A DNA stretch of 39,516 bases from Methanobacteriota archaeon (GTDB lineage Archaea; Thermoplasmatota; Thermoplasmata; Thermoplasmatales; GCA-001856825): contig JAFMDN010000010.1 in NCBI GenBank assembly GCA_017857235.1, positions 1 through 39,516 on the forward strand. The letters are read 5' to 3'. The notes under the pieces were generated by a model. That model ran no database searches. It saw only the letters and a list, made by a program, of their open reading frames with translations, and was not told the DNA's origin. Within the stretch, counting starts at the first letter, position 1, and each line of letters starts with the position of its first letter. Of this stretch, positions 3,989-20,911 are shown piece by piece. A program made the position numbers and the translations under genes.

Positions 3989-5077
3989 TTATTTTAATTG
4001 AAGAATAGATTTTTCCATGGAAGCAATAGTGATTTTACCATATGGATATGCCAATATTCCTTTATTATCTATCCCAAGTTCCATTAGCAATGATAAGTAT
4101 GCAATGATGCCAAAGGCAAGTGATTCCCTAGCATCCCATGGAACTCCTAAATTATCAGACATTATTATTTTTTTGTTAAGTAATATTTCTAACCTTTCTA
4201 TAATACCTTTATTTTTACACCCGCCTCCTGCGCATATTATTTCCATATTTTTCCAATTTCCAATAAAATTAACTATGTTTTTGTATATCGAATATGAGGT
4301 AAAATATGCCAAAGTTGCAATTATATCCTTTTTATCTGGATTTTCCCTTTTTGAATATTCTATGATTTTTTCAAAAAATTCACGACCATACCTTTCCCTA
4401 CCAGTACTCTTGGGCGGTTTCTTTGAAATGAAATTGTCCTTACTTAAAATTTTTATTAAATCCTCCAAAATCTCCCCTTTCAATGATAATTCGCCTTCGA
4501 AATCCATATCTTTTCTATAAAAAAATCTCATGGCCTGGTCCAGCAACATGTTTCCTGGACCGCTGTCAAAACCATAAGGCCTATCTCCGGTTACGGTTAT
4601 ATTTGAAATACCGCCAATGTTTAGAATTATTTTGTCCTTCCCGTATATTATGGAATCTGCAAAAGGAACTAGAGGTGCCCCTTGATTACCTGCTGCTATG
4701 TCTGAATATCGTAAATCAGTCACCACGGGAATCTTGGAACTGTAATTCAATAATGTAACATCACCAATCTGCAAAGTTATTTTCCTTGGTCCATCGTGAT
4801 AAATAGTATGACCGGAAAAAACACCCAAGTCACAACTGATGCTCTCTTTTTCATAAATATCCTTTAAGATCTTTCCCAATTCCCAATGCAATTTAGCAAT
4901 TTCTACCTTATCAACAATTCTGGATTCTGCAATGTTGAGCAGTTTCGTCTTTATTTTTTTACTATACGATTTATGGCCATTTTTGATAATATTAAACTTG
5001 AACTCTTTATCTATGTCAAAAATAACATATGAAATCCCATCAGTGGATGTCCCCGACATCGCAGAAAAAATCCTCAT
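3989..5077 (-). CDS. anmK: Anhydro-N-acetylmuramic acid kinase
   Basis: AnmK opens the 1,6-anhydro ring of anhydro-MurNAc and phosphorylates it to MurNAc-6-phosphate with ATP, in the cytoplasm. Family hallmarks are present: MSGTSTDG near the N-terminus (7-14), DLRYSDIAAGNQGAPLVP (121-138), NIGGISN (153-159) and GFDSGPGN (169-176), where D171 matches the catalytic Asp of bacterial AnmK. Length (362 aa) matches the family. Its product is the MurQ substrate, and murQ lies at 20.1-20.9 kb. It diverges from nagZ, whose product in Gram-negative recycling is anhydro-MurNAc. This substrate arises only from lytic transglycosylase action on bacterial peptidoglycan, so its presence in a wall-less archaeon points to scavenging. 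Confidence 0.95.
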   Translation of the reverse strand: MRIFSAMSGTSTDGISYVIFDIDKEFKFNIIKNGHKSYSKKIKTKLLNIAESRIVDKVEIAKLHWELGKILKDIYEKESISCDLGVFSGHTIYHDGPRKITLQIGDVTLLNYSSKIPVVTDLRYSDIAAGNQGAPLVPFADSIIYGKDKIILNIGGISNITVTGDRPYGFDSGPGNMLLDQAMRFFYRKDMDFEGELSLKGEILEDLIKILSKDNFISKKPPKSTGRERYGREFFEKIIEYSKRENPDKKDIIATLAYFTSYSIYKNIVNFIGNWKNMEIICAGGGCKNKGIIERLEILLNKKIIMSDNLGVPWDARESLAFGIIAYLSLLMELGIDNKGILAYPYGKITIASMEKSILQLK

Positions 5078-5184: not shown

Positions 5185-6552
5185 ATGGATTCAGGACGGT
5201 TTATGCAAATTGGAATCTACCCCAATGACATTGAAAAGTCCAAATCTCTTCTAAGGAAAATAAAGCCCGTTTCAGTAATAATAATGGGAAATGAATTTTC
5301 AAACCTTGAAGAGCTTAAACTTCTAATTAAAACAATAAATGATCTTTATACTAAAGAATTTAAAATTAAGGAACCACTTTTAGCAGTTGATCAAGAAGGG
5401 GGGAATGTAGCAAGATTAAGGGAGATAAATTATTCTCCAGGAAATTACCTCCTTGGAAAATTTGATAATCCAAAATTCACCTATTACGCTGGAATGGCTA
5501 CGGGATATGAATTAAAAAAGCTAGGATTTCATTGGAACCTTGCTCCCGTACTGGATGTCATGAACAATTCAGATAACTATATAGTTATGGAGAGGTCTTT
5601 TGGTGATAATCCTGCGAAGGTTGCACTTCACGGTTATAATTTTATACAAGGATTGCAGAAATATGGAGTATCTGCAACATCCAAACATTTTCCTGGACAC
5701 GGCTCTGTAATGGAGGATAGCCATGTGACCCTGCCCGTTGATAAAAGGTCCTGGGATTCTATACTTAATACCATGTATCCTTTTATTAAATCTATAGAAG
5801 CAGGTGTAAAAAGCATCATGATGACTCACATTGTTTTTCGGTCTTTTGATACAGACTATCCGGTATCACTATCCAAAAAGTGGCATACTTTTCTGAGGGA
5901 AGATTTGAATTTCAAAGGGGTAATAATATCAGACTCCATGGATATGAAAGCCATTAGAAATAACTACAATCCGGAGGAGATAGCAAAACTATCTTTTGCT
6001 GCTGGTGCGGATGTCATAGAATGCGTTGACCCAGATTTAGCTCTTGATATTTATGAGAGTTTAAAAAAAGATTTAAGTGATAACAGTTCAAGACTTAGAA
6101 GGATTGAGAACCTGTATATAGAAAATGCAAGCAAGATTAGGCCCCCTCCTGAGGTAATGGAGTGGATTTCTTCAAGAGCACCTACCTGGTTTAAAGAATT
6201 GAAACTTGATCCGAATTCTATTATTCAGATCTTCAACCTTTCACCTTCCAAATACATGATACCGATACTTGAAAGAATTGCTAATGATTTAAAATCCATT
6301 GGAGTGAATGTAATTCTCTCACAGGAGGAACAAACTCCAAGTCAAATTATATTTGTGGGAAAAAACCTACACATTAATGGCAATTATAAAAAAATAAATG
6401 AACTGTGTAAAGGAAAGAGGTGTGTATACCTTTCAACAGGCGTACCTGTTGATACAGGACTTCTGAATGAAGAAATAGGTTATATTAACTCAGGTGGAGA
6501 TAAATATGAAAATATTAAAGCATCGATTTATTCCATAATAGATTTTTATTGA
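5185..6552 (+). CDS. nagZ: GH3 beta-N-acetylglucosaminidase
   Basis: This GH3 enzyme removes non-reducing GlcNAc from muropeptides such as GlcNAc-(anhydro)MurNAc. The NagZ signature KHFPGHGSVMEDSH lies at 167-180, including the Asp-His catalytic dyad characteristic of GH3 NagZ. The likely nucleophile is D250 in SDSMDM, and the substrate-site DQEGG is at 69-73. There is no signal peptide, so the protein should be cytoplasmic, as in E. coli. At 455 aa it exceeds the one-domain E. coli enzyme (about 340 aa) by a tail of roughly 120 residues, which may be a shortened version of the second GH3 domain found in Bacillus NagZ. It is divergent from anmK and convergent with the BadF kinase gene. Other beta-hexosaminide substrates such as chitin fragments are possible, but the neighbours favour murein. 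Confidence 0.92.
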   Translation: MDSGRFMQIGIYPNDIEKSKSLLRKIKPVSVIIMGNEFSNLEELKLLIKTINDLYTKEFKIKEPLLAVDQEGGNVARLREINYSPGNYLLGKFDNPKFTYYAGMATGYELKKLGFHWNLAPVLDVMNNSDNYIVMERSFGDNPAKVALHGYNFIQGLQKYGVSATSKHFPGHGSVMEDSHVTLPVDKRSWDSILNTMYPFIKSIEAGVKSIMMTHIVFRSFDTDYPVSLSKKWHTFLREDLNFKGVIISDSMDMKAIRNNYNPEEIAKLSFAAGADVIECVDPDLALDIYESLKKDLSDNSSRLRRIENLYIENASKIRPPPEVMEWISSRAPTWFKELKLDPNSIIQIFNLSPSKYMIPILERIANDLKSIGVNVILSQEEQTPSQIIFVGKNLHINGNYKKINELCKGKRCVYLSTGVPVDTGLLNEEIGYINSGGDKYENIKASIYSIIDFY

Positions 6553-6625: not shown

Positions 6626-7669
6626 CTAATCCATAAATAGATACTTCCTTCTTTCATAAGCTGGTATCTCATTTATTTTTGAATTCAGCATTACCCTAAA
6701 TTTATTAATTTCCTCCATATCTATTGTATATCCACTGTTCATAAGATTCATTACTATCGACCCTATAACTGCCTCATAACCGAAAAATGGGTCCAAAATC
6801 TCAGAACTTGGAATTCTATTTTTTACATCATTGAATATCATATCTATGTACCACCTACCTGACCTGAATACCCCTCCATAACCACTTATTTTTATACCAA
6901 CTGGACGATTAAATTTATTATATGTAGAAATTATTGTAGTAACAGATTCTTTTGCTGCCTCTTTCATTATATCCAATGCAAGAGGATCATTTTTTGAGGC
7001 TAGACCTGAAACAATGGGGGCAATTGATGCAATTTCCCTTATGTCTATCTTCGTTTTATAGACCTTGTTTATTATACCCCTTTCCTCCTGGATACCATAG
7101 AAGTCCTTCAACCTGTTTGGTAGGAGACTTTCTTTGTATAAATCGTTCCCACTTCTTCCATCCCACACTTTTACAGATTCCTGCAATGCTCTCTTACCTA
7201 TAAAGAAAGCACCCCCCTCGTCATCTAAGAACCATCCCCAACCCGAAGATCTTACTTTATTTCCCTTCCATATACCGTATGATACCATACCTGTGCCTGG
7301 TGCCAGTATAATTCCTTCTCCATCTGGGAATCTACAATAAAATGCAGCCTCCCCATCATTGAAAAAATCCATTCTTTTGAACTTAAATATGCCCTTTATG
7401 TTGCTTGTGATCAATTCTGTTGATTCCCTAGAATCCTTAATTCCTGCCAGAGCAAATGTAACCAAATCTATTTTTTCTGGATCAACGTCTTTTATCACTT
7501 TAGAAACCACTGTTTTTATATTTCTTTTGAAATTGCCTATACCTATATTTCTGAAATTTGATGGTCCTCCTATGGATACCTTAAAAATTTCGTCCTCATT
7601 ATATAGTGCGGCAACAGTTTTTGTGGCACCGCCATCGACAGAGAGATAAAGCATACCTCTGTATAGCAT
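6626..7669 (-). CDS. BadF/BadG-type N-acetylmuramate/N-acetylglucosamine kinase (MurK/NagK-like)
   Basis: An ASKHA-fold sugar kinase that likely phosphorylates free MurNAc and/or GlcNAc at C6. The phosphate-1 loop DGGATKT is at 12-18, NDGEAA at 104-109, APGTGM at 123-128, and the family segment GWGWFLDDEGGAFFIG at 143-158. All are typical of eukaryotic NAGK and clostridial MurK. It supplies MurNAc-6P to MurQ and GlcNAc-6P to NagA from the products of NamZ and NagZ, complementing AnmK, which handles the anhydro sugar. Archaea lack the PTS that many bacteria use for this step. A second ATG at residue 6 is an alternative start; the first is preferred because no Shine-Dalgarno supports the second. 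Specificity for MurNAc versus GlcNAc is inferred from context. Confidence 0.85.
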   Translation of the reverse strand: MLYRGMLYLSVDGGATKTVAALYNEDEIFKVSIGGPSNFRNIGIGNFKRNIKTVVSKVIKDVDPEKIDLVTFALAGIKDSRESTELITSNIKGIFKFKRMDFFNDGEAAFYCRFPDGEGIILAPGTGMVSYGIWKGNKVRSSGWGWFLDDEGGAFFIGKRALQESVKVWDGRSGNDLYKESLLPNRLKDFYGIQEERGIINKVYKTKIDIREIASIAPIVSGLASKNDPLALDIMKEAAKESVTTIISTYNKFNRPVGIKISGYGGVFRSGRWYIDMIFNDVKNRIPSSEILDPFFGYEAVIGSIVMNLMNSGYTIDMEEINKFRVMLNSKINEIPAYERRKYLFMD

Positions 7670-7759: not shown

Positions 7760-9586
7760 TTATTGTTTCTTTTCTTCTTCTTTCTCTTCTTCTTCCTTCT
7801 TAGATTTTCCTCTCCTAGATACAACGTAGGCTACTGGGACTGCTATAATTATTATAACAACCACTGCAACTATTCCATACACATATGCAGGTATGGTTGA
7901 TGAAGTCGTATTATTATGTGATGAAGATGTTGTGGTTGTGGTAGTAGAAGTTGTAGATGGAACACTGATAGAAAGCAGATTTATAATGCCTGTTGGTGTA
8001 TCGATCGTTTTAAAACCTGTTATTTTCTGTGAATTGTATGCATAATAGTTTCCTATATCTCCAATTGGAACCATTGGAACCTGGTTGGCTATTATATACT
8101 GCGCCTTGAAAAGCAGATTTAACATTCCAGTATAGTTGGATGCCATCGTAAAGGATTCGTTCAATAGCTGATTGACTGTTGCATTTGACCAGTGTGTTAT
8201 ATCCTTATCCCAAAAGCTTTGATAATCATAAAGATCCCATAGTACATACCAAGGATTGGAGAATGAAGGAGTTGCACCAAAGTAGCTGAGTTCTGTCCAA
8301 TTCTTGGTTGCAAATATATCGGTTGCCCATGTTCCTATTGGGATTACTGAATAGGTGACTGAAAATCCTATAGATGACAGATCATTTGTGATCAATGATG
8401 CAGCAGTCATCCAATCAGAAATATCTGGCTCTATTATGGTTAACTTCACCATAGTTCCATTGGGATAATACCAGAATCCTCCCTTCTGAACTAGTCCTGC
8501 CATCTTGAAATAATTTATTGCTTGGGTTGTATTGTAATGATAGTAAGGTAGATTTGGAGCCCACCAAGAATAATTTGTCCATGGTTCGCCGCCAAATGAT
8601 GGGGCGCCTCCAATTCCATCTTCAGCTTTTTGCATTATTTCTGTTTTATTTATTGCATATGCCAATCCAATTCTGAAATCTGTGTTATTGAAAGGTGCCT
8701 GCTGAGTATTGTCCCAGAGGAAGTATCCCCATGGCATCTTATAAATTACATTTACCACATTTGGCATAGATTTCAAGGCATAATAGTCGCTAATGGCTGG
8801 ATATTCAGCATCTATTTGCCCATTCTCAAATGATAAAGTCATAGAAGAAGTTGATTTGAATGGTTCAATTATGAATGTTGCTACATGAGGACTTCCAAGC
8901 CAGAAGTGTGTATTGGCTGTAAATGTTAGCGCTGTCTCCGTCACAGATTGTAGAAGGAACGGTCCTGCCTGAATTTCGTGTCCTATGTCAAGATTGGTAT
9001 ATGATCCAATCTGTGATATATTTTGTACATAAGTGCCCCACACCGCTGGTATTATGGGTTGTGTGGAAAGATATGTCAACGCCATAACAGTTGGTGATGT
9101 GAGTGTAAATTGCACAGTTTCATTGTTCAGGGCAACTACACTCTTTAGGAATGTGTGGACTCCATAGGCGTCAAGAGTGGTATTGGTTGTTATTACCTTG
9201 AATGTGAACACAACATCATTTGCTGTTATTGGTCCTACCTCAGTTGTACCGTTGAACCATTCAGCATTGGGATTCAAATAAAATGTGTACACAGTTCCAT
9301 TTGAATTTACAGTGTAATTCTCAGCAAGATATGGTACTAGGCTTCCATCAGATAATGAATAAAGAAGGCTTGGGTACATAATTCCCGTGGCTTCCCCAGC
9401 GAGATTTGTTGCTGTCAATGGGTTCAAAGTTGTTACTGGTGTCGAAACAGGTGTTCCCCAAATGAAGGTTCCATTGGGCGCTGTTTGTGCATGAACTGGC
9501 ATCATAAATGCCAGAGGAACCATCATCATCAAGCCAACAGCCAATAAACTAAGCAATGCTTTTTCCTTTTTATTAAATTTTAACAT
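7760..9586 (-). CDS. Family-5 (OppA/DppA-type) substrate-binding protein, membrane-anchored
   Basis: The extracellular receptor of an oligopeptide/muropeptide ABC importer. The chosen start is the second ATG (9586) because a strong Shine-Dalgarno GGAGAGGT lies four bases upstream; an upstream ATG at 9613 in the same frame lacks one. The protein (608 aa) begins with a signal peptide (basic MLKFNKKEK, hydrophobic run, cut near VHA-Q). It continues with an SBP_bac_5 body (for example FRIGLAYAINKTEIMQ), a Ser/Thr-rich linker, one transmembrane helix near the C-terminus, and a highly charged Lys/Glu tail. That C-terminal anchoring is typical of archaeal peptide-binding proteins. The matching permease and ATPases are dppBCDF at 14.1-18.0 kb. 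Binding of muropeptides is inferred from context, as MppA does in E. coli. Confidence 0.9.
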   Translation of the reverse strand: MLKFNKKEKALLSLLAVGLMMMVPLAFMMPVHAQTAPNGTFIWGTPVSTPVTTLNPLTATNLAGEATGIMYPSLLYSLSDGSLVPYLAENYTVNSNGTVYTFYLNPNAEWFNGTTEVGPITANDVVFTFKVITTNTTLDAYGVHTFLKSVVALNNETVQFTLTSPTVMALTYLSTQPIIPAVWGTYVQNISQIGSYTNLDIGHEIQAGPFLLQSVTETALTFTANTHFWLGSPHVATFIIEPFKSTSSMTLSFENGQIDAEYPAISDYYALKSMPNVVNVIYKMPWGYFLWDNTQQAPFNNTDFRIGLAYAINKTEIMQKAEDGIGGAPSFGGEPWTNYSWWAPNLPYYHYNTTQAINYFKMAGLVQKGGFWYYPNGTMVKLTIIEPDISDWMTAASLITNDLSSIGFSVTYSVIPIGTWATDIFATKNWTELSYFGATPSFSNPWYVLWDLYDYQSFWDKDITHWSNATVNQLLNESFTMASNYTGMLNLLFKAQYIIANQVPMVPIGDIGNYYAYNSQKITGFKTIDTPTGIINLLSISVPSTTSTTTTTTSSSHNNTTSSTIPAYVYGIVAVVVIIIIAVPVAYVVSRRGKSKKEEEEKEEEKKQ

Positions 9587-9590
9587 ATTG

Positions 9591-9598
9591 ACCTCTCC
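9591..9598 (-). promoter_or_regulatory. Shine-Dalgarno site deciding the SBP start
   Basis: The minus strand reads GGAGAGGT, four bases before the ATG at 9586. Most neighbouring first genes look leaderless, so this strong site is unusual. It supports the internal start over the ATG at 9613 and suggests a leadered, well-translated mRNA. Confidence 0.75.
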
Positions 9599-9646
9599 AA
9601 AATACAAATACAATGTCGGAATATAATATTTTGCATATAAGATATG

Positions 9647-9746: not shown

Positions 9747-11126
9747 ATGGATTTATTACAATATCTGACAGTTAAAAATATTGATTTCCTCTCAAAGAGG
9801 GAAGATGTAATACCCTATATTCGTGATGCATCATATTTTACGGGGGAGCTACCTATTGCTGTTGTCCTTCCAAAAAATGAAAATGAGATTTCTGAGATTC
9901 TCACCAAATGTTATGAGGAGAATATCAAAGTAGTGGCAAGAGGCGGTGGTACTTCACTTACTGGATCCTCGATCTCACTTAAGGGTTCTGTGGTAATCAG
10001 CATGCTACGACTCAATAGGATACTTGAATTCTCTGGTGGAGATAGGTACGTTCATGTTCAGGCAGGTGTAAGAATAGATGATTTAAACTCATATCTACAA
10101 TCAAAGGGATTTTTATATCCTCCAGATCCTGCCAGCTCTTTGGCCTCAACAGTTGGGGGGACAATTTCTACAAATGCCGGCGGACTCAGAGGTACATATT
10201 ATGGTTCAACAAAAGAATGGATTCTTGGATTAGGAATCGTTTTAGCGGACGGTAGAATAATTAGGACTGGAGGCAAAATACTGAAGAGAAGTGCAGGTTA
10301 TGACCTTACATCCTTATTTGTTGGAGCAGAGGGAACTCTTGGAATTATTTTCGATGCTTATTTGAAAATTGTTCCTAGAATTGAAAATTTTACGAGAATA
10401 ATGGTATTTTTCAGAAAAGCTGAAGATATGGGAAAAGCTATCTATCAAATCAAGGAACGTGGTCTTAATCCATTAAGCGCTGAATTTACTGATAAAATTT
10501 CCATGAACATTATTTCAAGGATATCTGGTATTCCAGTACCGGATGGGTCTGAGGTACTTCTCATAATTGACATCCCCATATTATCTGGAAATGAATATGA
10601 AAAATTCATACAGATAATAAAAAACTCCAATCCAACAGGAATAAAGTCATTGAACGCTGAAGAATCCGAAGTTGTATATAAGGCTAGAAAGGGTCTTTAT
10701 TCCTCCCTTCTAAATGAAAGAGAGAGGGAGGGAGAATACATTATAATTGGGGATGTTGTTGTCCCATCTTCAGAAGTTCCTGAAGCCCTGAATGAGACTC
10801 GGGATCTAATTGAGAAATTTGGATTAAAAATTTCACTTTTTGGACATATTGGAGACGGTAACATACATGCTAATGTTTTCACAAATATCAATTCCAATGA
10901 AGAAATGAAAAAGGCTGAGAAATTTCTAGAAGAATTTGGCGATATTGCTTTAAGGCATAATGGTTCCGTATCAGCTGAACATGGTATCGGATTTGAGAAA
11001 AAGGAACTCCTAATTAGAGAATTTATTTACAAGAAAAGCATTGTAAACATGGAAATTATGAAATCCATTAAGAAGATCTTAGATCCTAAAAATATATTGA
11101 ACCCTGGGAAGGTATTCGATTTATGA
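9747..11126 (+). CDS. glcD: FAD-linked D-lactate/glycolate dehydrogenase subunit (GlcD-like)
   Basis: A flavoprotein of the VAO/GlcD family, most likely oxidising D-lactate to pyruvate. The FAD-binding PCMH domain occupies about residues 30-215 with RGGGTSLTG (65-73), PPDPAS (125-130) and GGTISTNAGG (137-146). The C-terminal FAD-oxidase domain carries HIGDGNIHANVF (367-378) and SAEHG (409-413), the usual metal and active-site motifs. It overlaps the Fe-S subunit gene by 4 bp (ATGA), indicating translational coupling. MurQ, encoded in the same region, releases D-lactate from MurNAc-6P, which gives this enzyme an obvious substrate. Glycolate or another 2-hydroxy acid is possible. The ATG follows a TATA-like AATAAAAT by about 30 nt. 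Confidence 0.88.
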   Translation: MDLLQYLTVKNIDFLSKREDVIPYIRDASYFTGELPIAVVLPKNENEISEILTKCYEENIKVVARGGGTSLTGSSISLKGSVVISMLRLNRILEFSGGDRYVHVQAGVRIDDLNSYLQSKGFLYPPDPASSLASTVGGTISTNAGGLRGTYYGSTKEWILGLGIVLADGRIIRTGGKILKRSAGYDLTSLFVGAEGTLGIIFDAYLKIVPRIENFTRIMVFFRKAEDMGKAIYQIKERGLNPLSAEFTDKISMNIISRISGIPVPDGSEVLLIIDIPILSGNEYEKFIQIIKNSNPTGIKSLNAEESEVVYKARKGLYSSLLNEREREGEYIIIGDVVVPSSEVPEALNETRDLIEKFGLKISLFGHIGDGNIHANVFTNINSNEEMKKAEKFLEEFGDIALRHNGSVSAEHGIGFEKKELLIREFIYKKSIVNMEIMKSIKKILDPKNILNPGKVFDL

Positions 11127-12295
11127 ATGAATCACTTGACATTTATGTATCAAGATGTATAAATTGCGGATTCTGTGATGCAGTATGCCCGACTCTTGAA
11201 GCCGCAGATTTTCGAGGGTACTTTGGAGCAAGAGGTAGGGTAAATTTAGCTAAAGAATTAATTAAGAATGATATTGGAGAAGAAGAAGTATTAGATTCAT
11301 TTAATTCATGCCTACATTGCAATGCCTGCCTTTATGTATGTCCAGCAGGTATTAGTGCTGGAGAAATTTCAGAAAAATTAAAGTTAAGGTCAAGTAAAAA
11401 GGATCCCTTAGCTAAGTTCATAGCAGAAAATATAATGAAATACAAGGACCCTTTGAATATTGGCAAAGGATCCACATTATGGAGTAAAGGTTTAAAGTTC
11501 AATGAACAATCGGAATATCTGTTTTATACAGCCAGAATGTATCAATTGATGCCATACAATTCAGCCGTAGCTAAAATGAGAGAAAAGTTGGGTGAAGGAT
11601 TGCTGAAAAAATTCTCCCCTACCTTCAGTAAATTGGGATTCAAAGGTTCCCTCCTTAAGATATTTCTTGAAAGAGAAAAAGTTGAAGAATTCAATAATAT
11701 TCTTTTGAATATATACAAAGTACTTGCAGAATCTGGAGTTGAGTTGAGGTATTTGGGGGAGGAAGAGCCCTATTCGGGTGCAATGCTTTTAGAATTTGGG
11801 TTTGAAAAAGAATTTACCAGTTACGCAAATTGGCTTGTTAATTTTTTCAAATCAAAAAATATAAAAAAAATAGTTACTATTGATCCGCATACATATACAT
11901 TACTAAAATATCAGATTAAGGATTATGTTAATTTTCCATTCGAGGTAATATTCTATCTGGATCTTGTTAACAAAAAGGCTAATTTTTCTGGTACTGTAAC
12001 AATCCATCAGGCCTGTCATCTTGAAAGATACGGAGAAAAATATAGGAAATACTATGATATTTTAAGTGATGTAAGGATAATAAATCCAATCCATTTCAAC
12101 GAAAGGACCTTCTGTTGCGGTGGGCCAGATGAGGTTCTATTTCCTAATCTGACAAATAAAATATCAGAAAAGAGATTTATTGAGCTGAAATCAACTGAAG
12201 CAGATTATATAATTACCATGTGTCCAATATGTTATATTAACTTAAAAAAAGATGAAAAAGTTATTGATATTTCTCAATTTATAGCTAAATTTTAG
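11123..12295 (+). CDS. glcF: Fe-S electron-transfer subunit of the D-lactate/glycolate dehydrogenase (GlcF/GlpC-like)
   Basis: It accepts electrons from the GlcD flavoprotein and passes them to the respiratory chain, probably at the inner face of the membrane. Two 4Fe-4S ferredoxin motifs are seen: C12-x2-C15-x2-C18-x3-C22 and C63-x2-C66-x2-C69-x3-C73. Two CCG-type cysteine-rich segments follow (HQACHLERYG and FCCGGPDE, then a MCPICY stretch near the end). Length (390 aa) fits GlcF. Its start overlaps the glcD stop by 4 bp. Its 3' end overlaps the convergent DD-peptidase gene by 11 bp. No transmembrane segment is evident, so membrane contact would be peripheral. Confidence 0.88.
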   Translation: MNESLDIYVSRCINCGFCDAVCPTLEAADFRGYFGARGRVNLAKELIKNDIGEEEVLDSFNSCLHCNACLYVCPAGISAGEISEKLKLRSSKKDPLAKFIAENIMKYKDPLNIGKGSTLWSKGLKFNEQSEYLFYTARMYQLMPYNSAVAKMREKLGEGLLKKFSPTFSKLGFKGSLLKIFLEREKVEEFNNILLNIYKVLAESGVELRYLGEEEPYSGAMLLEFGFEKEFTSYANWLVNFFKSKNIKKIVTIDPHTYTLLKYQIKDYVNFPFEVIFYLDLVNKKANFSGTVTIHQACHLERYGEKYRKYYDILSDVRIINPIHFNERTFCCGGPDEVLFPNLTNKISEKRFIELKSTEADYIITMCPICYINLKKDEKVIDISQFIAKF

Positions 12296-13289
12296 AAAGT
12301 ATTTTACTTAGCAACTTGTCAATGGCCTCTTCCCTCTTTTCCGTTGGTTCCTTCCCATATGCAATAAATGAAAATGCTAACTCTCTGCTAAGTGACACCC
12401 CAGTAAGTGAACTTATGTATCTTATGGTCCCTGTTTTAGCATAGATTTCATAATCTTTGATATCATCCAACCTATTCGAGAGAGTTCCCTTCCCAGGTCC
12501 TGGTAAATAATAGACAAATTCTCTATCATAAGTAAAAATCTTAAACATCAGGTTCGAAAGTTCTGATGCTGTAAACAGATTTGTTCTTGAAAGGCCGGAA
12601 CCATCTCTTATTTCAAATTGAGACGAATCTAATCCCATATTTATTAGAAATTTTGAGACGTTGTTTGCAGCCCCAATCCAGGTTTTTTCATCGTTTTCTT
12701 GCTGCGAAGAATATCTCAATAAAAGCTCAGCAGAAAAATTACATGATATACTGAGTATATGAGATATCACATCTTTAAGCTTAATTTCCCTAGAAATTAT
12801 GCTATAATTTCCATCTTTTGAATTTGTGTTTTTTGATTCTTTCCTTATCAATTTGAACTCCCTTTCCAAAAGAGATCCCGTGGAATGTTCTCCCTTATGG
12901 TAACCTCCTATACAGTTTTCATCTATGGTATAAGGTTCTACTGGAGCACCATAACAGTATTCTTTGTCTCCTATCATCCAATCTGGATGATACTTTTCAT
13001 CCCATAGCATGTTTTTATCATAATACACAAATTTCAGATCACCCAGATAATCTGAAAGTAAAGATTCAAATTCGCCTTTTGAGAATAAGAAAAGCGGATC
13101 TCCATATATGTTCAAAAATTCCTGATCTATTCTAAATAATGTCTTTAAGGTTCTTTCTTTCCCTAAAATCTTGTAAGCGTAATAGGTGGATGGTATTTTC
13201 ATATTTGATGCTGGAGGGAGTGGTATTTCATGGGACTCTCCATCTATTATTCTACCATCCTTACTCCTTATAGCATAAGATACGAGCAT
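12285..13289 (-). CDS. PBP4/DacB-like DD-peptidase (S13 family), no signal peptide
   Basis: A penicillin-binding-type serine peptidase, likely a D-alanyl-D-alanine carboxypeptidase/endopeptidase acting on peptidoglycan peptides. All three active-site motifs are present: SxxK (S28-N-M-K31), SxN (S182-C-N184, in SCNFSAE as in PBP4 SxN-x-x-AE) and KTG (285-287). The PBP4 segment RDGSGLSRTN is at 228-237. Bacterial DacB is periplasmic and about 450-480 aa; this one is 334 aa with no leader, so it should act on imported muropeptides in the cytoplasm. An esterase or D-aminopeptidase activity is an alternative. It diverges from the amidotransferase gene over a 57-bp promoter holding a palindrome. 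Confidence 0.85.
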   Translation of the reverse strand: MLVSYAIRSKDGRIIDGESHEIPLPPASNMKIPSTYYAYKILGKERTLKTLFRIDQEFLNIYGDPLFLFSKGEFESLLSDYLGDLKFVYYDKNMLWDEKYHPDWMIGDKEYCYGAPVEPYTIDENCIGGYHKGEHSTGSLLEREFKLIRKESKNTNSKDGNYSIISREIKLKDVISHILSISCNFSAELLLRYSSQQENDEKTWIGAANNVSKFLINMGLDSSQFEIRDGSGLSRTNLFTASELSNLMFKIFTYDREFVYYLPGPGKGTLSNRLDDIKDYEIYAKTGTIRYISSLTGVSLSRELAFSFIAYGKEPTEKREEAIDKLLSKILSKI

Positions 13290-14078: not shown

Positions 14079-14134
14079 ATATCGCTATAATTAATTTGAT
14101 AAATTTATTATGGGATATTCTAATCAAGAAATAT

Positions 14135-15133
14135 ATGGTAACCTTGGGTTACATTATCAGAAGATTTATATACATGTTAATAACACTCTTTGTTGCTATT
14201 ACATTAAATTTTTTGCTTCCCAGAATGGTGCCGGGGAATCCTGCATTGTTGATTTTAATAACAAAATACGCTGGCAATTTTAATCCCAATCAATTGAAAT
14301 TGATTGAAAGCGAACTCAATTTAAAGGGAACTTTGTGGCAACAGTATATAGGATATTGGAATGATATTCTACATGGAAACTTAGGACCTTCCTATTATTT
14401 TTATCCTGAAACTGTTAATCAGATAATTGCCTCAAGACTCCCTTGGACCCTATTCCTCTTGGGAACTGCAATGTTGATCTCAGTTGTTATAGGAGTTATC
14501 TTAGGTTCTTATTCTGGATGGAAAAGGGGATTTGCAGATAATTTTCTTCAGGCAATTTCAATAGGTCTTACATCTTTGCCATATTTCTGGCTTGCACTTA
14601 TTTTTCAACTTGTGTTTGCAGTAATGATTACCATAAATGGGAGGCACCTGTTTCCTGTAGCCCAGGCTTACAGCATCACTGTATCTCCAGGATTTAATTT
14701 ACCTTTTATAGAGTCGGTACTATGGCATTCGGCCTTGCCTATAATAACACTTGTTATTACTACATTTCCGGGCTTTGCCCTTTTGATGAGAAATACTGTA
14801 GTTACTATACTTGATGAGGACTATCTTCTATTGGCCAAGGCAAAGGGTCTTTCCGTTAAGACTATTAGAAAGAGATACGTAAATAAGAATGCTATGCTAC
14901 CGGTAACAACAAGTATAGCGTTAGCTTTCGCCAGCATAGTAGGTGGTGCCTTTTTAGTAGAGGAGGTCTTCTCATACCCCGGTATAGGATATGCGCTTTA
15001 TACTGCAGTCACTGTTAGTGATTATCCTCTTATTGAGGGCATATTCTTAATAATTACTTTAACAGTAATTCTGGCAAATTTTGCCGTAGATTTGATTTAT
15101 GCGTATCTTGATCCAAGGGTGGTTTTAAAATGA
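14135..15133 (+). CDS. dppB: Peptide ABC transporter permease DppB
   Basis: An inner permease subunit of a dipeptide/oligopeptide importer. The start is taken as ATG 14135, giving MVTLGYIIRRFIY, the usual DppB N-terminus; a TTG at 14096 in frame would add 13 atypical residues. The RMVPGNPA segment after TM1 and the later EAA-type loop (LLAKAKGLSVKTIRKRYVNKNAMLP) are family hallmarks. Six hydrophobic helices are expected. It overlaps dppC by 4 bp (ATGA). With DppC it forms the channel for substrates delivered by the binding protein at 7.8-9.6 kb, proposed here to be muropeptides. Confidence 0.92.
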   Translation: MVTLGYIIRRFIYMLITLFVAITLNFLLPRMVPGNPALLILITKYAGNFNPNQLKLIESELNLKGTLWQQYIGYWNDILHGNLGPSYYFYPETVNQIIASRLPWTLFLLGTAMLISVVIGVILGSYSGWKRGFADNFLQAISIGLTSLPYFWLALIFQLVFAVMITINGRHLFPVAQAYSITVSPGFNLPFIESVLWHSALPIITLVITTFPGFALLMRNTVVTILDEDYLLLAKAKGLSVKTIRKRYVNKNAMLPVTTSIALAFASIVGGAFLVEEVFSYPGIGYALYTAVTVSDYPLIEGIFLIITLTVILANFAVDLIYAYLDPRVVLK

Positions 15134-16026
15134 GCGATAGAGAAGAGGAAGTTATTAAAATATTGAGAAGTTCCTCTCAATTCAACAGGTTTAAGGATTT
15201 TATGAAGAAATTGCTTCATCACAGAAAAGCACTGACAGGACTTTCGATTTTATTTTTACTGGTACTGATTGCTATTATTGGCTATTTTGCTGCGCCTTAC
15301 AATCCCTTTAACACCAATGCACCACCATTCCAACCGCCAACTAGACAACACCTCCTGGGAACGGATTATCTCGGTGAAGATGTTTTATCTTGGTTCCTTT
15401 TAGGTACAGGAACTTCCTTATTTGTTGGATTTAGCATAGCCATAATTTCTGCCTTTATTGGAGTCCTTGTGGGGGTTACAGCTGGATACTTTGGAGGACA
15501 GGTGGATAACGTATTAATGAGAATAGTTGATGTACTCCTTGTTATACCCGGATTTCCTCTACTTGTAATTCTTTCAGCTTTTCTTCCACCAACTCTTGAA
15601 ACGACTATCCTTGTTCTCTCGATATTATCATGGCCATTTCTATCAAGGGTAATAAGATCACAGACACTATCCCTAAAGCAAAGACAATATGTTCTAGCTT
15701 CTAAACTATCAGGATTATCTGGCTTTCAGATAATTTTCAGAGATATTATACCAAATCTTATTCCTATAATTTTTATTAATGTGATTTTCCTGGCAGTTGG
15801 AGGAGTTGTTGCCCAAGCGGGATTAGCATTTTTTGGTCTGGGCGACCTAAGATCTGTAAATTGGGGGACAATGCTTTACTGGTTTGAGGCTGAGGACGGT
15901 ATTGTTTACAATGCCTGGTGGTGGCTTATTCCACCGGGTCTTGGCATTGTAGCCCTTGGCATTGGAGCTAACTTCCTCGGAAACGCAATTTATGAACTGA
16001 CTCAGCCTTCAAGAGGTGGTCAGTGA
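15130..16026 (+). CDS. dppC: Peptide ABC transporter permease DppC
   Basis: The second permease subunit of the importer. It has the DppC layout: a cytoplasmic N-terminal segment, TM1 (LTGLSILFLLVLIAIIGYF), then the family motif HLLGTDYLGEDVLSW, and a later EAA loop (YVLASKLSGLSGFQIIFRDIIPN). Length 298 aa is normal. It overlaps dppB by 4 bp and touches dppD by 1 bp, so the four genes form one operon. The last codons contain the GAGGTG that serves as the dppD ribosome-binding site. Confidence 0.93.
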   Translation: MSDREEEVIKILRSSSQFNRFKDFMKKLLHHRKALTGLSILFLLVLIAIIGYFAAPYNPFNTNAPPFQPPTRQHLLGTDYLGEDVLSWFLLGTGTSLFVGFSIAIISAFIGVLVGVTAGYFGGQVDNVLMRIVDVLLVIPGFPLLVILSAFLPPTLETTILVLSILSWPFLSRVIRSQTLSLKQRQYVLASKLSGLSGFQIIFRDIIPNLIPIIFINVIFLAVGGVVAQAGLAFFGLGDLRSVNWGTMLYWFEAEDGIVYNAWWWLIPPGLGIVALGIGANFLGNAIYELTQPSRGGQ

Positions 16027-16988
16027 TGAATGAACCACTTCTAGAAGTAAAGGATATTAATGTAGAATACAGATTAAGGGAGAAGGTCGTAAAGGCTGTC
16101 AGAGGTATAAATCTAAGAATAAATAAAAAGGAAATAGTGGGGATAGTTGGTGAAAGCGGGTGTGGTAAATCAACTCTGGCCATGACATTTTTAAAATTAG
16201 TTGATTCGCCTGGAAAGATAACCTCCGGCCAGATAATATACCATGGTAAAACTGATATAGATGTACTTAAATTGAAGCCCTCAGGCTTAAGGAAATACAG
16301 ATGGAAAGAAGTTTCAATGATATTTCAGGGGAGTATGAATGCCCTAAATCCTGTAACAAGGATAGAAGAGCAGATAATGGATACTATGCTTGAGCATGGA
16401 TACGACCAAGAGACAGCACTAAAAAGAGTTGATGAGCTATTGAGAGTCGCTGGCTTGAATCCTTCAGTGAAAAATTCATTCCCGCATGAGCTTAGCGGTG
16501 GAATGAAGCAGAGAGTTAACATAGCAATATCCTTAGCATGTGAGCCCTCTCTTGTAATTGCTGATGAGGCTACCACAGCTCTGGATGTGGTAGTTCAGAG
16601 GCAAATCATGGCAAGGCTTCTGAAATTGAGGGATGAATTGGGGATTTCACTTGTATTCATTACCCATGATATCTCACTTGTCGCTAATATTGCAGATAGG
16701 GTTTATGTTATGTATGCTGGTAAAGTAGTTGAAAATGCACCTGTTGAAGAATTATTCTATAATCCAAAACATCCCTATACCATAGCCCTTTTGAACTCTA
16801 TTCCAAGTATTCAGAAAGATAAGAAAATAAAGGGAATTCCGGGTACACCACCTGATCTTTCTAAACCCATAAAAGGGTGTCCATTTGCACCTCGCTGCAA
16901 TAAGGCATTTGATAAATGCCATGAGGTCGAACCTGATTTAATATCAATCGGACAGGATCATGAGGTATCCTGCCATCTCTACGGGTGA
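16026..16988 (+). CDS. dppD: Peptide ABC transporter ATPase DppD
   Basis: One of two ATPases energising the importer. Walker A GESGCGKS, the Q-loop MIFQGSMNALNP, signature LSGGMKQR and Walker B LVIADEATTALD are all intact. The C-terminal oligopeptide-transporter tail has the cysteine cluster GCPFAPRC then C and C, seen in DppD/OppD and linked to an Fe-S site in some members. ATG 16026 is preferred over the in-frame GTG at 16023 because GAGGTG at 16013-16018 sits seven bases upstream of the ATG. The start overlaps the dppC stop by one base. Confidence 0.93.
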   Translation: MNEPLLEVKDINVEYRLREKVVKAVRGINLRINKKEIVGIVGESGCGKSTLAMTFLKLVDSPGKITSGQIIYHGKTDIDVLKLKPSGLRKYRWKEVSMIFQGSMNALNPVTRIEEQIMDTMLEHGYDQETALKRVDELLRVAGLNPSVKNSFPHELSGGMKQRVNIAISLACEPSLVIADEATTALDVVVQRQIMARLLKLRDELGISLVFITHDISLVANIADRVYVMYAGKVVENAPVEELFYNPKHPYTIALLNSIPSIQKDKKIKGIPGTPPDLSKPIKGCPFAPRCNKAFDKCHEVEPDLISIGQDHEVSCHLYG

Positions 16989-16993
16989 TCTTG

Positions 16994-17971
16994 ATGAATT
17001 CAGTAATTGAACTTGAGAATGTGACAAAAATTTTCACCAATACACAGGGAATAATAAGAAGAAAAAAGAAGCGTGTCTATGCTCTTCATGATGTTAATCT
17101 ATCCATAGGTGAGAAAGAAATTCTTGGATTAATAGGAGAAAGTGGTTCAGGGAAAACTACCCTCGGATTAGCTGTTCTTAGGCTACTGGATCTGGAGGGG
17201 GGTAGGATACTTTTCAAGGGTAAAGATATTCTCAGCATGGACAAAAGAGAGATATTTAAATTTAGGGAAAAGACCGAAATGATATTTCAAGATCCCTATG
17301 GCTCTCTCAATCCAGTTCAATCGGTATACAAAATAATTTCCACACCATACAAAGTATTCAATAAAAATGTAAAGGAAAGGGACGTAATTGAAAAAGTCAT
17401 GGATACACTTGAGATGGTTGGTCTGACACCACCAGAGCAGTACCTTGCGAAATATCCTAATCAATTAAGCGGGGGACAGCGTCAGAGGGTAGGCATAGCA
17501 AGGGCCATCATAACAAATCCAGAATTCCTTGTGGCAGATGAACCGGTCTCAATGCTTGATGTCTCTCTAAGGGCAGATGTGCTTAACATCTTATTGGAAT
17601 CAAGATTAAAACTTGGAACTTCCATATTATTTATATCTCACGACATAGCGGTTACACAATATGTTTCAGATAGAATTGCAGTTATGCATTTAGGTCAGAT
17701 AGTTGAGATTGCTGAATCAACTGAACTCGTAAATAACCCCCTTCACCCTTATACCCAAACATTAATTAATTCCATACCTATCCCCGATCCAAAAAAGAAA
17801 TGGGATACTTCTGAGCCTAAGGCACTGGCAGGAGAGTATAATAATGAAGGAAAAAATGAGTGTAGTTTTGCCAGAAAGTGTCCCTTTGTAATGGACAGGT
17901 GCAGAAATTCAAGACCTAAGATGATTGAAAAAGGGGACAAGCATTATGTGGCATGCTACCTCTATGAATAA
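16994..17971 (+). CDS. dppF: Peptide ABC transporter ATPase DppF
   Basis: The partner ATPase of DppD. Walker A GESGSGKT, Q-loop MIFQDPYGSLNP, signature LSGGQRQR and Walker B LVADEPVSMLD are present. A C-terminal cysteine set (ECSFARKCPFVMDRC and a final C) mirrors that of DppD. ATG 16994 is chosen over a GTG at 16985 because GGTGATC, complementary to the 3' end of archaeal 16S rRNA, lies just upstream at 16984-16990. Its 3' end overlaps the convergent namZ gene by 10 bp. The operon dppB-C-D-F lacks its own binding-protein gene, which lies 4.5 kb away. Confidence 0.93.
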   Translation: MNSVIELENVTKIFTNTQGIIRRKKKRVYALHDVNLSIGEKEILGLIGESGSGKTTLGLAVLRLLDLEGGRILFKGKDILSMDKREIFKFREKTEMIFQDPYGSLNPVQSVYKIISTPYKVFNKNVKERDVIEKVMDTLEMVGLTPPEQYLAKYPNQLSGGQRQRVGIARAIITNPEFLVADEPVSMLDVSLRADVLNILLESRLKLGTSILFISHDIAVTQYVSDRIAVMHLGQIVEIAESTELVNNPLHPYTQTLINSIPIPDPKKKWDTSEPKALAGEYNNEGKNECSFARKCPFVMDRCRNSRPKMIEKGDKHYVACYLYE

Positions 17972-19020
17972 ATAAGGAATTTTTTTCTTATTTCATTAAA
18001 TTTTTCTAATTGAGAATTCCATTTTTCTAGAATTTCTTCATACGTCACTGATCCGCTTATATAATTATAAATCGAATCATCTCCAAGCAATAGGTCCATT
18101 TTCTTTTTATTTATTTCCAATTTATTATAAGATTTCATTATATCAAATACCAATTTGAAAGGGTCATATTTTGATCTGTCCAATATATGAACGTAATATC
18201 CATCAATTAACTCCCCCGAATATAATGAATACATTGGCCTGAATTTTACATGCCTTAGTTTGATTCCTTCAACATCAGTTTCTACCTTTTCTAATCCAGG
18301 AGCGCCAAATTGCATGAATGGAGATGGGGTTCCTCTACCAACGGAAATATTCGTGGCTTCCAATAAACAGAAAGCCTGATAGTTTACCACGGATTCCATT
18401 GTAGGAAGATGTAGAGAAAGAGGGACATAATAGTTCAAAGCATCTTCGTGCCACATGGACCTACTGTAACCTTCCATTGATTTTATTTCGATTTCAGCAT
18501 TTATTTTTCTATTAAAAAATAATGCCAATTCACCTGGTGTCATGCCATACTTAATTGGAATACTTTCAATTCCTACAAAGCTTAAATTGCTTTCTGGCAA
18601 GATAGGACCATAAATTTCATCAGCCCTTATTGGATTTGGCCTGTCCAATACAATCATCCTGATCCCATTCTTTTTAGCACTTTCCATTACCAGCTTCATG
18701 GTAGAAATGTATGTGAAATACCTTACCCCTGCATCCTCTATATCATAAACTATAGCATCTATTCCATCTAAGTCTTCATCTCTAGGAGATTTAATGCTTC
18801 CATAAAGCGACCTTACTTTTATTCCTTTTATATATGAATCACCTATGCTTTCACCATCAAGCATCGTCCCGTATAGGCCTTGCTCGGGAGTAAATATCAG
18901 AGAAACATTCTCCAGCTTATCAAAATTGTAGATAAGATTGGAATCCACACCAGTTGCATTGGTAACCAGTGCAATTTTTCCATAGATATTTTTAAACTGG
19001 TCCAGCCCTAATTTTATCAT
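17962..19020 (-). CDS. namZ: Exo-beta-N-acetylmuramidase NamZ-like (DUF1343, GH171)
   Basis: NamZ of Bacillus subtilis removes MurNAc from the non-reducing ends of peptidoglycan chains. The DUF1343 pattern runs through this 352-aa protein: IALVTNATGV (16-25), TPEQG (44-48), SLYG (71-74), YDIEDAGVRYFTY (92-104), LDRPNP (125-130), SFVGIESIPIKYGMTPGELA (147-166). Bacterial members usually have EHG and HG where this one has EQG and YG, so two His are replaced. There is no signal peptide, whereas B. subtilis NamZ is secreted; a cytoplasmic role on imported fragments is inferred. It is divergent from the AmiE-like gene across only 37 bp, mirroring the Bacillus amiE-nagZ-namZ neighbourhood. Confidence 0.9.
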   Translation of the reverse strand: MIKLGLDQFKNIYGKIALVTNATGVDSNLIYNFDKLENVSLIFTPEQGLYGTMLDGESIGDSYIKGIKVRSLYGSIKSPRDEDLDGIDAIVYDIEDAGVRYFTYISTMKLVMESAKKNGIRMIVLDRPNPIRADEIYGPILPESNLSFVGIESIPIKYGMTPGELALFFNRKINAEIEIKSMEGYSRSMWHEDALNYYVPLSLHLPTMESVVNYQAFCLLEATNISVGRGTPSPFMQFGAPGLEKVETDVEGIKLRHVKFRPMYSLYSGELIDGYYVHILDRSKYDPFKLVFDIMKSYNKLEINKKKMDLLLGDDSIYNYISGSVTYEEILEKWNSQLEKFNEIRKKFLIYS

Positions 19021-19057
19021 TTGAACAACCTTTTATATAGATCAACAATTGCATTAT
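19021..19057. promoter_or_regulatory. Very short divergent promoter namZ / amiE-like
   Basis: Only 37 bp separate the two start codons. TTTTATATAG at 19031-19040 centres about 23 nt before ATG 19058, the right spacing for a leaderless transcript. The same stretch reads CTATATAAAA toward namZ but lies only about 15 nt from its ATG, so the namZ TATA box is uncertain. The two directions must share or compete for this DNA. Confidence 0.4.
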
Positions 19058-20116
19058 ATGGATTGCTATTCTGAAATCTTAAAGAAATACAAAATGGCGG
19101 CAATGGGTTACACACTGCTTGTTAATTATAAGGGAGAGGAAATTATAAATTGTTACGATGGGTCAATAACTGAATTAGGGTTCAGTTATTCCTCTCAGAC
19201 AGTTTATGATCTTGCATCCCTTACAAAAGTTCTAGCCACTCTCCCCCTGACATTAATACTTCTTGACAGGGGTGAAATTACTCTCAAGGACACAATTTCA
19301 AGCCTTAATCTTTTCCCAGAATTTAAGAACATAGGAAAATTGACTATTGAAAATCTATTGACCCACACTTCTGGAATGATTCCAGACAAACCTTTATGGA
19401 AGATTGGGCAAGATAAGTATTCATACTTGAAGGGAATCGATGAGGAAGCTGAAAGAGCTTCTCCATATACACAGGAATGGTACTCAGATCTCAATTTCAT
19501 TTTGCTAGGATTTGTATTAGAAGAAATATATGGAAAAAGCTTAGATAAGGCATTTAGGGATGAAATCGCTTTGAAATTAGGATTGAGATATACAACCTTC
19601 AACCCTGATTTCGATAAATCTATTATTGCTCCTACCGAGAATACTAAGGATAGAGGTTTAGTATGGGGTAAGGTACACGATGAAAAATCTTATTACATAG
19701 GTGGGGTTGCAGGCCATGCCGGTCTTTTTAGCAATGCAGATGAGATTTCTAAACTAATTTTTTCTATGATGGATGAAACATTATTTTCCAGATCAACATT
19801 CCTTCTTTCCACAGAAAATAGAAATAGGTATGTGGGAGGAATTTTTGGCCTGGGGTGGATGACAAAGACGGAGAGGCCAAATAACACTAGTAAATCCTTT
19901 GACCTCTCTGGATTCTTCGGGGATTATGCTCCTTTTGGAACGATAGGTCACACAGGATTCACTGGCACTTCAATATTGATAGATTTAGAGAATGAAATAC
20001 AGGTTATTCTTTTGACAAACAGGGTATATCCATCAAGGGAAAATGAGGGCCATATAAGATTCAGAAGATTACTCCACAATTCAGTCTACAGATGGCTTGG
20101 AGTTGGACCTTTTTAG
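19058..20116 (+). CDS. AmiE/YbbE-like serine hydrolase of the beta-lactamase family
   Basis: A class C beta-lactamase-fold serine hydrolase (352 aa). The nucleophile motif SxxK is S54-L-T-K57, the second motif YSD is at 142-144, and the third is the GHTGFTG segment near the C-terminus. This GHTGFTGT form is typical of the subgroup that includes B. subtilis YbbE (AmiE), an N-acetylmuramoyl-L-alanine amidase encoded beside nagZ and namZ. It is therefore the best candidate here for separating stem peptides from MurNAc. It has no signal peptide, unlike the Bacillus enzyme. ATG 19058 is preferred over an in-frame TTG at 19049 because a TATA box lies 23 nt upstream. Its end overlaps murQ by 36 bp. 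An esterase or D-aminopeptidase cannot be excluded. Confidence 0.85.
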   Translation: MDCYSEILKKYKMAAMGYTLLVNYKGEEIINCYDGSITELGFSYSSQTVYDLASLTKVLATLPLTLILLDRGEITLKDTISSLNLFPEFKNIGKLTIENLLTHTSGMIPDKPLWKIGQDKYSYLKGIDEEAERASPYTQEWYSDLNFILLGFVLEEIYGKSLDKAFRDEIALKLGLRYTTFNPDFDKSIIAPTENTKDRGLVWGKVHDEKSYYIGGVAGHAGLFSNADEISKLIFSMMDETLFSRSTFLLSTENRNRYVGGIFGLGWMTKTERPNNTSKSFDLSGFFGDYAPFGTIGHTGFTGTSILIDLENEIQVILLTNRVYPSRENEGHIRFRRLLHNSVYRWLGVGPF

Positions 20117-20911
20117 TAGGTTTAGGGCTTCTGGTATATTGTAATTAACCATCTCTAATATTTTTCTGGCCTTTTCCTCATCTATCCCAAACTTGTCAAT
20201 AAGTATTTTTACAGCTCGATTTTTGAGTTTTTCATTATAAAATGCCTTCATGTGCGTCATAACATTTCCATCTGTCTTTCCCAATTTTATTGCCAGGGTG
20301 GTACTTATAATGTTGAGAGTCATTTTCTGAGCAGTTCCAGCCTTCATCCTGGTTGATCCCTGAATAACCTCCTCCCCTGTATCCAATACAATGCTATAAT
20401 CAGAGATTTTAGAAACTACAGAATTCCTGTTATTTGTAATGGATACCGTATAGGCCCCAACTGACTTTCCGTATTCTATGGCTGCAACTACAAATGGAGT
20501 TCTTCCAGATGCAGTTATACCAATTACAACGTCCTTCTCATTTAGCTCATAACCTTTGAGCTCCTCTATGGCCTTTTCCCTATCGTCCTCGGCCCCTTCC
20601 TTACTTTTGGCCAAGGCCTCATTTCCACCTGCCATTATGTAATAGAATATGTACATAATGCCATATGTGGGTTCTAACTCTGCAACGTCCTGGGCAGCTA
20701 TCCTACCACTTGTACCGGCCCCAACATAAAAAACCCTGCCACCTGCAGTAACCCTCTCATAGATAGAATCTATCACCTTAGCAATTGATTCCTTTGCACA
20801 ACCAACAGCTTCATAAGCTCTTATATCCTCTAAGTGGATTGTCTCCACGATTTTCAGCGTGTCCATCTTATCAATGTCCCTAGTTCTTATGTTGTTGTCC
20901 TCAGTACCCAT
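20081..20911 (-). CDS. murQ: N-acetylmuramic acid 6-phosphate etherase
   Basis: MurQ cleaves the lactyl ether of MurNAc-6P, giving GlcNAc-6P and D-lactate. It is the committing step of MurNAc use and has no other known role. The SIS-domain motif GAGTSGR is at 64-70. Glu78 in AELEPTYG aligns with the catalytic Glu of E. coli MurQ (in SECPPT), and Glu108 in EGAEDD aligns with the second essential Glu. At 276 aa it is slightly shorter than bacterial MurQ (about 300). The gene overlaps nagA by 11 bp. GGAGGT-like sequences precede the ATG (AGGAGGTT about 10 nt upstream and GGAGA at 5 nt). It overlaps the AmiE-like gene end-to-end by 36 bp. Confidence 0.94.
   Translation of the reverse strand: MGTEDNNIRTRDIDKMDTLKIVETIHLEDIRAYEAVGCAKESIAKVIDSIYERVTAGGRVFYVGAGTSGRIAAQDVAELEPTYGIMYIFYYIMAGGNEALAKSKEGAEDDREKAIEELKGYELNEKDVVIGITASGRTPFVVAAIEYGKSVGAYTVSITNNRNSVVSKISDYSIVLDTGEEVIQGSTRMKAGTAQKMTLNIISTTLAIKLGKTDGNVMTHMKAFYNEKLKNRAVKILIDKFGIDEEKARKILEMVNYNIPEALNLLKRSNSKPSVD

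Follow-up and report, generated by a model that had tools for sequence, protein, structure and literature searches.

GlcDF as a candidate D-lactate outlet of MurQ in a peptidoglycan-catabolism island of Thermoplasmata archaea

The bacterial MurNAc pathway includes AnmK, NagZ and NagA, and in E. coli MurQ is encoded in the murQP-yfeW operon together with murP and a PBP4B-like neighbour (yfeW). E. coli also encodes GlcD- and GlcF-type subunits side by side, as part of GlcDEF, and in K-12 glcDEF lies far from murQ. To our knowledge, few studies have followed what becomes of the D-lactate that MurQ releases. A likeness is found in C. glutamicum with introduced MurNAc catabolism, where Dld carries out a quinone-dependent oxidation of D-lactate downstream of the MurNAc etherase; however, the pathway there is engineered, and lactate accumulated as the two were uncoupled (PMC6165865). 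D-lactate use in this bacterium needs Dld, and the authors thought that dld overexpression might help (PMC6165865). BCG, which has no MurQ orthologue, grows on MurNAc by way of the lactyl part of the sugar (PMC6572805). Among archaea, a D-lactate dehydrogenase has been confirmed in A. fulgidus (PMC3949148), and in 2025 archaea were reported to make peptidoglycan hydrolases that kill bacteria, such hydrolases being prominent in Thermoplasmatota, while whether the bacteria serve as food was left open (PMC12352652). In the open-access full texts searched, we found no paper on a gene link between murQ and a D-lactate dehydrogenase or on archaeal MurNAc catabolism, although subscription papers may hold one. 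What is new here is the murQ-glcDF linkage and its archaeal setting.

The DNA analysed (hereafter the window) is a stretch of 39,516 nucleotides, contig 43 of a 1.28 Mb assembly that is ~90% complete, and it comes from a Thermoplasmata archaeon, an organism without a bacterial cell wall of its own. Among named relatives, the closest one found is KMA_Bin16, a Thermoplasmata MAG (MurQ identity 83%). A peptidoglycan-catabolism island occupies ~2.7-25.5 kb of the window and encloses glcD and glcF, with AnmK, NagZ and a BadF-type kinase on one flank and the S13 peptidase, OppBCDF, NamZ, the PBP4B-like protein, MurQ, NagA and the SIS deaminase on the other. The features are as follows:

2662-3933: MFS carrier adjoining AnmK (weak matches to metabolite/H+ and sialate/H+ symporter models)
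3989..5077, minus strand: anmK, anhydro-MurNAc kinase (PF03702, E 1e-63)
5185..6552, plus strand: nagZ-like GH3 beta-N-acetylglucosaminidase (PF00933, E 3e-61; NF003740, 184 bits, cut-off 207)
6626..7669, minus strand: BadF/BadG-type kinase, candidate MurNAc/GlcNAc kinase (PF01869)
7760..9613, minus strand: SBP5 (OppA/DppA-type) receptor (PF00496, E 3e-53)
9747..11126, plus strand: glcD-like FAD subunit, VAO/PCMH family D-2-hydroxyacid dehydrogenase (Pfam, nearest PDB relatives, residue alignment)
11123..12295, plus strand: glcF-like iron-sulfur subunit, 2 x 4Fe-4S and one CCG domain (Pfam, motifs)
12285..13289, minus strand: S13 (DacB/PBP4-like) D-Ala-D-Ala peptidase (PF02113, E 3e-33; motifs SNMK, SCN, KTG)
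13347-14078: class II amidotransferase-like protein (PF13230, weak)
14096..17971, plus strand: oppBCDF, oligopeptide-type ABC transporter
17962..19020, minus strand: namZ, exo-beta-N-acetylmuramidase (PF07075 and PF20732)
19049..20116, plus strand: PBP4B-like serine hydrolase, adjoining murQ (PF00144; NF002968, E 8e-39)
20081..20911, minus strand: murQ, MurNAc-6-P etherase, proposed D-lactate source (NF003915, 318 bits, cut-off 168)
20901..22031, minus strand: nagA, GlcNAc-6-P deacetylase (TIGR00221, 238.6 bits, above the equivalog cut-off of 225.65)
22028..22963, minus strand: SIS-domain GlcN-6-P deaminase, NagB-II/GlmS-isomerase-like (scores below curated cut-offs)
22975..24153, minus strand: membrane-anchored Amidase_6-like protein with a PKD-like domain (weak Pfam matches; beside nagA in relatives too)

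The island thus shares AnmK, NagZ, NagA and the PBP4B-like neighbour of MurQ with the bacterial systems, and differs from E. coli murQP-yfeW in being archaeal, in having an Opp-type importer rather than a PTS, in its BadF-type kinase and in the putative D-lactate dehydrogenase within the cluster. Taken as a whole (2662-25523), it is a nearly complete archaeal peptidoglycan scavenging island, a wider and less expected finding than the glcDF association, with related islands in 22 of the order's 117 genomes as well as in a second family of the class. A bacterial contamination of the assembly is unlikely, since G047 and G073, genomes of the order that each consist of a single contig, hold related islands. 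The GC content of glcD (0.36) and glcF (0.32) is close to that of the neighbouring genes (0.34-0.41).

Several of the other genes merit a remark of their own. The SBP5 receptor may bind muropeptides, judging from its neighbours. The S13 peptidase has its SxxK, SxN and KTG motifs and no visible signal peptide, suggesting that it is probably cytosolic and degradative, and the amidotransferase-like gene that adjoins it in the window and in some relatives perhaps encodes an enzyme acting on amidated stem peptides. The protein encoded at 22975-24153 has an N-terminal hydrophobic stretch and a C-terminal membrane anchor, making it a candidate surface wall amidase. In a sister species (G036, L085 10685-11560), a secreted ORF of 291 aa that weakly matches GH114 and is absent from the window lies between the BadF kinase and SBP5 genes. 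Relatives' islands also hold genes that the window does not have (L087 8358-9044, L088 7288-8352, L088 9711-10979 and L112 9605-11305), encoding NlpC/P60, L-Ala-D/L-Glu-epimerase-like, DAP-decarboxylase-like and S15 peptidase proteins. A secreted protein without a Pfam family, in which a GH18-like FDxE-type motif can be seen by eye (L090 4104-5057; G000:C41:8546-9292), occurs, within the window's family, in all six genomes that carry an island and in none of the others.

The MurQ of the window scores 318 bits with NF003915, well over the cut-off of 168, and 266.8 bits with TIGR00274, against 302 bits. Its residues E78 and E108 align with E83 and E114 of E. coli MurQ, which we take to be the catalytic glutamates. 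The window's murQ, which lies 9 kb from glcD, is thus judged genuine by model score and residue alignment. Its substrate, MurNAc-6-P, can in principle be supplied by AnmK or by the BadF-type kinase, whose family includes the MurK of Tannerella (PMC5790795). With the identities of MurQ and NagA and these two kinase sources, no step towards D-lactate is missing on paper.

The earlier note had placed glcD and glcF amid the same island as murQ, divergent from the receptor gene, and gene calls, Pfam matches and coordinates bear this out. Both genes are intact; glcD encodes 459 aa (PF01565, E 5e-43; PF02913, E 4e-52) and glcF, which overlaps it by 4 bp, encodes 390 aa (PF02754, E 1e-13). A spacer of 133 bp separates the listed starts of glcD and the SBP5 gene; a reading by eye found no convincing operator shared between this spacer and other island upstream regions, and conservation between the genus's two such spacers is only moderate. 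The assignment as GlcD and GlcF stands at the family level with Pfam, but neither subunit reaches the cut-off of the NCBIfam "glycolate oxidase" equivalog (GlcD, 379.2/567.9 bits with TIGR00387, its best NCBIfam model; GlcF, 61.3/333 bits with NF008434), so "GlcDF" is a family-level name only. No glcE was found beside glcDF, as glcF directly follows glcD and the surrounding genes are not glcE. In GlcF, the eight cysteines of two 4Fe-4S clusters are kept, together with one CCG domain ending in CPxC, whereas the first CCG motif present in E. coli GlcF is missing from the window's GlcF and from the aligned Thermoplasmatales homologues, and hence the electron path may differ from that in E. coli.

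We then compared GlcD with enzymes of known structure. GlcD has the VAO/PCMH fold with FAD_binding_4 and FAD-oxidase_C domains, and its model (mean pLDDT 86) superimposes on FAD D-lactate dehydrogenases with a TM of ~0.85-0.91 (9QGZ/9QIT, 8JDE, 7QH2). The nearest solved relative, both by sequence (E 8e-72) and by fold, is PdG-D-LDH (9QGZ/9QIT), followed by mouse LDHD (8JDE) and A. woodii LctD (7QH2). GlcD resembles these enzymes in the fold, the substrate-binding Arg, the His/His/Glu metal site and the catalytic His; it differs in its identity of only ~30% to the characterised enzymes, in Asn376, in its GlcF-like Fe-S partner and in its archaeal origin. By alignment, the catalytic and metal residues are complete, with R314 for the carboxylate, H367, H374 and E411 for the metal and H412 as the catalytic His. 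In the methyl pocket, Y318 corresponds to Tyr327 of PdG-D-LDH, F365 stands for its I369, and I332-I334 line the wall, all of which fit a hydrophobic pocket, while N376, a polar residue in the place of Leu380, does not. The relative activity of PdG-D-LDH is 100% with D-lactate, 33% with L-lactate and ~4% or less with the other listed substrates, glycolate being unmentioned (PMC12724367). Together, the structural and residue comparisons favour D-lactate or a similar small hydrophobic D-2-hydroxyacid as the substrate, with N376 as a caution and with an identity of ~30% proving no substrate.

The family name and the best NCBIfam model suggest another possibility, namely that GlcDF acts mainly on glycolate, or on both glycolate and D-lactate, in which case glycolate could come via NagA from actinobacterial N-glycolyl-muramic acid. 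E. coli GlcD does oxidise both substrates, with an affinity ~tenfold higher for glycolate (PMC10589216), and this preference was ascribed to Phe341 and Tyr351 in the mouse LDHD paper (PMC10589216). Our alignment reproduces this correspondence and finds Tyr318 and Ile332 at these positions in the window, while a second paralogue found in some relatives carries Phe at both. The window's enzyme thus departs from E. coli GlcDEF in the replaced Phe341/Tyr351 pair, in the equivalog scores of both subunits, in having no adjacent GlcE and in the first CCG motif of GlcF. Furthermore, a malate synthase that could use the glyoxylate was not matched in the same genome. Glycolate as the main or shared substrate is consequently unlikely, though it is the alternative that survives best.

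The remaining gene content of the genome was also examined, in single-family searches of the ~90% complete assembly. In these searches, glcD is the sole FAD-oxidase_C gene found, no LUD-domain protein (PF02589; LutABC/LldEFG) was matched, and no full-length FMN_dh (LldD) was matched either, the two hits being short pieces. LutABC and LldD as alternative lactate oxidisers were accordingly not found in this genome. Subunit I of a haem-copper oxidase (COX1) is present, and a respiration of the electrons from GlcDF is therefore possible. That the D-lactate made by MurQ is instead exported, for example by the MFS carrier at 2662-3933, with GlcDF serving something else, is very improbable, since this carrier, although within the island and weakly matching metabolite/H+ and sialate/H+ symporters, lies beside AnmK only in the window's genus among the mapped islands and may as well transport (anhydro)MurNAc.

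The distribution of the two genes was followed through 117 genomes of the order, with murQ present in 22 and glcD in 62. The three murQ genomes without glcD are 69-71% complete, and the frequency of glcD is 19/22 with murQ versus 43/95 without it (Fisher p 6e-4, uncorrected for relatedness). Among good genomes only, glcD is present in 9/9 with murQ and in 25/42 without it (p 0.02). Agreement is complete within the window's family, where six genomes have both genes and nine have neither; G025 lacks both though it is 93% complete in six contigs. Linked genes are lost jointly from incomplete genomes, which inflates co-occurrence, and on a marker tree the three pairs on supported branches are all concordant, a number (n=3) that cannot reach significance in a sign test.

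The two genes are also physically linked: in four genera, spread over two families, glcDF lies 2.6-18 kb from murQ. The distance between glcD and murQ is 9.0 kb in the window's genus, 2.6-2.7 kb in a second genus and 17.6 kb in a third, and in the second family of the class (genus g51) glcD lies 3.4 and 6.4 kb from murQ, inside an island that also has NlpC/P60, an L-Ala-D/L-Glu-epimerase-like enzyme, NamZ and AnmK. Both genes are <20 kb apart in 4 of the 12 genera that have both, where random placement in 1.5 Mb would expect 2.7% (binomial 2e-4, or 3.5e-3 when the window's genus and G038 are counted once; these values are rough, as the genera are not independent). In the remaining murQ genomes of the order, glcDF is >=26 kb away or on another contig. 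The surroundings of glcDF vary: the pair is divergent from the receptor gene in the window and from NamZ-Opp in G038, in one genus it forms a glcD-glcF-nlpC/P60 endopeptidase run adjoining the nagA-murQ side (G028 and G035, likewise G030, split over two contigs), and it is downstream of AnmK in G153 and G167. An island-free site was sought via a flanking gene and none was found, this gene being confined to island-bearing genomes.

Phylogenies of GlcD point to separate recruitments. The window's GlcD groups with those of its sister species and of G038, whereas those of G028 and G035 group with a GlcD of another family (99/93), and a single GlcD transfer to all islands of the window's family is rejected (AU p 0.0046; 0.0002 in the tree with the second family). 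MurQ of the window's family is likewise split (AU p 0.024), and whole cassettes may therefore have moved, whether or not a glcDF of their own went along. Linked GlcDs of the second family remain inside that family's own clade (93/87) and the same gene lies downstream of glcDF with or without an island, which suggests that here the island came to lie beside a resident glcDF. The downstream gene (L176 16810-17751, with homologues in L177, L179, L181 and L184) encodes an AAT-like (penicillin acyltransferase-type) Ntn hydrolase. In summary, glcDF became associated with peptidoglycan islands at least three separate times, through two lineages in the window's family and a third in the second family.

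These associations have to be set against the 43 genomes of the order that carry glcD without murQ and that, where aligned, have the same active-site residues, which implies another or a broader role there; glcDF in such species must have another substrate source. A specialised pocket in the island-linked GlcDs is rejected, as nearly all orthologues of the order share it, and glcDF is best described, from its distribution and residues, as a putative general D-2-hydroxyacid dehydrogenase of Thermoplasmata that islands recruited, and not as one that evolved or specialised for MurNAc. This wide occurrence could also mean that GlcDF acts on another D-2-hydroxyacid of general metabolism (branched-chain 2-hydroxyacids, D-glycerate or D-malate) and that its place in the island is incidental. 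Mouse LDHD indeed prefers larger hydrophobic D-2-hydroxyacids over D-lactate (PMC10589216), and N376 is common to D-2-hydroxyglutarate dehydrogenase. However, of the Thr390, Lys401 and Asn443 of the latter enzyme, which correspond to Tyr318, Ile334 and Asn376 in the window, only one of three is kept, Thr390 and Lys401 being absent, and the repeated linkage to murQ from separate lineages and the exact co-occurrence in the family speak against an incidental position. We consider this explanation improbable too, and a shade more so than glycolate.

Hence, in our main reading the product of glcDF is an FAD/Fe-S D-2-hydroxyacid dehydrogenase linked to quinone or the respiratory chain, and in the island it acts chiefly on the D-lactate from MurQ; to this reading we assign a probability of roughly 0.7. 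The earlier note had proposed GlcDF as the D-lactate outlet of MurQ, coupling MurNAc cleavage to respiration. This proposal is supported in part, by the co-occurrence in the family, by the repeated linkage from distinct GlcD lineages and a second family, by D-lactate dehydrogenases as the nearest solved homologues and by the lack of a competing lactate dehydrogenase among those sought; the coupling fits context and structure, but a dedication of GlcDF to MurQ is not supported, given the murQ-less genomes with glcD.

Taking the observed gene identities, catalytic residues, linkage and co-occurrence together, we infer the substrate, electron acceptor and flux of GlcDF as follows. Imported wall fragments would be trimmed by NagZ, NamZ, the PBP4B-like hydrolase and the S13 peptidase, and MurNAc would be phosphorylated by the BadF kinase or AnmK. 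MurQ would then split MurNAc-6-P into GlcNAc-6-P, which NagA and the SIS deaminase would carry on to Fru-6-P, and D-lactate. GlcD would hold the D-lactate via R314 and a metal on H367/H374/E411, with H412 taking the hydroxyl proton; the hydride would pass to FAD and the electrons via the GlcF clusters to the respiratory chain, leaving pyruvate as the product.

If this is true, the island would provide a gene-linked route from MurQ to a D-lactate dehydrogenase, of which we found no earlier description in the open-access full texts searched, and a cluster joining the two enzymes would be a natural solution to lactate accumulation. Such an island in an archaeon, covering import as well as the glycan, peptide and lactate steps, also makes the question of bacteria as food directly testable. 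On balance, we lean towards the view that Thermoplasmata live partly on bacterial walls and that their islands repeatedly and independently took up a respiratory D-lactate dehydrogenase, so that both halves of MurNAc would be consumed.
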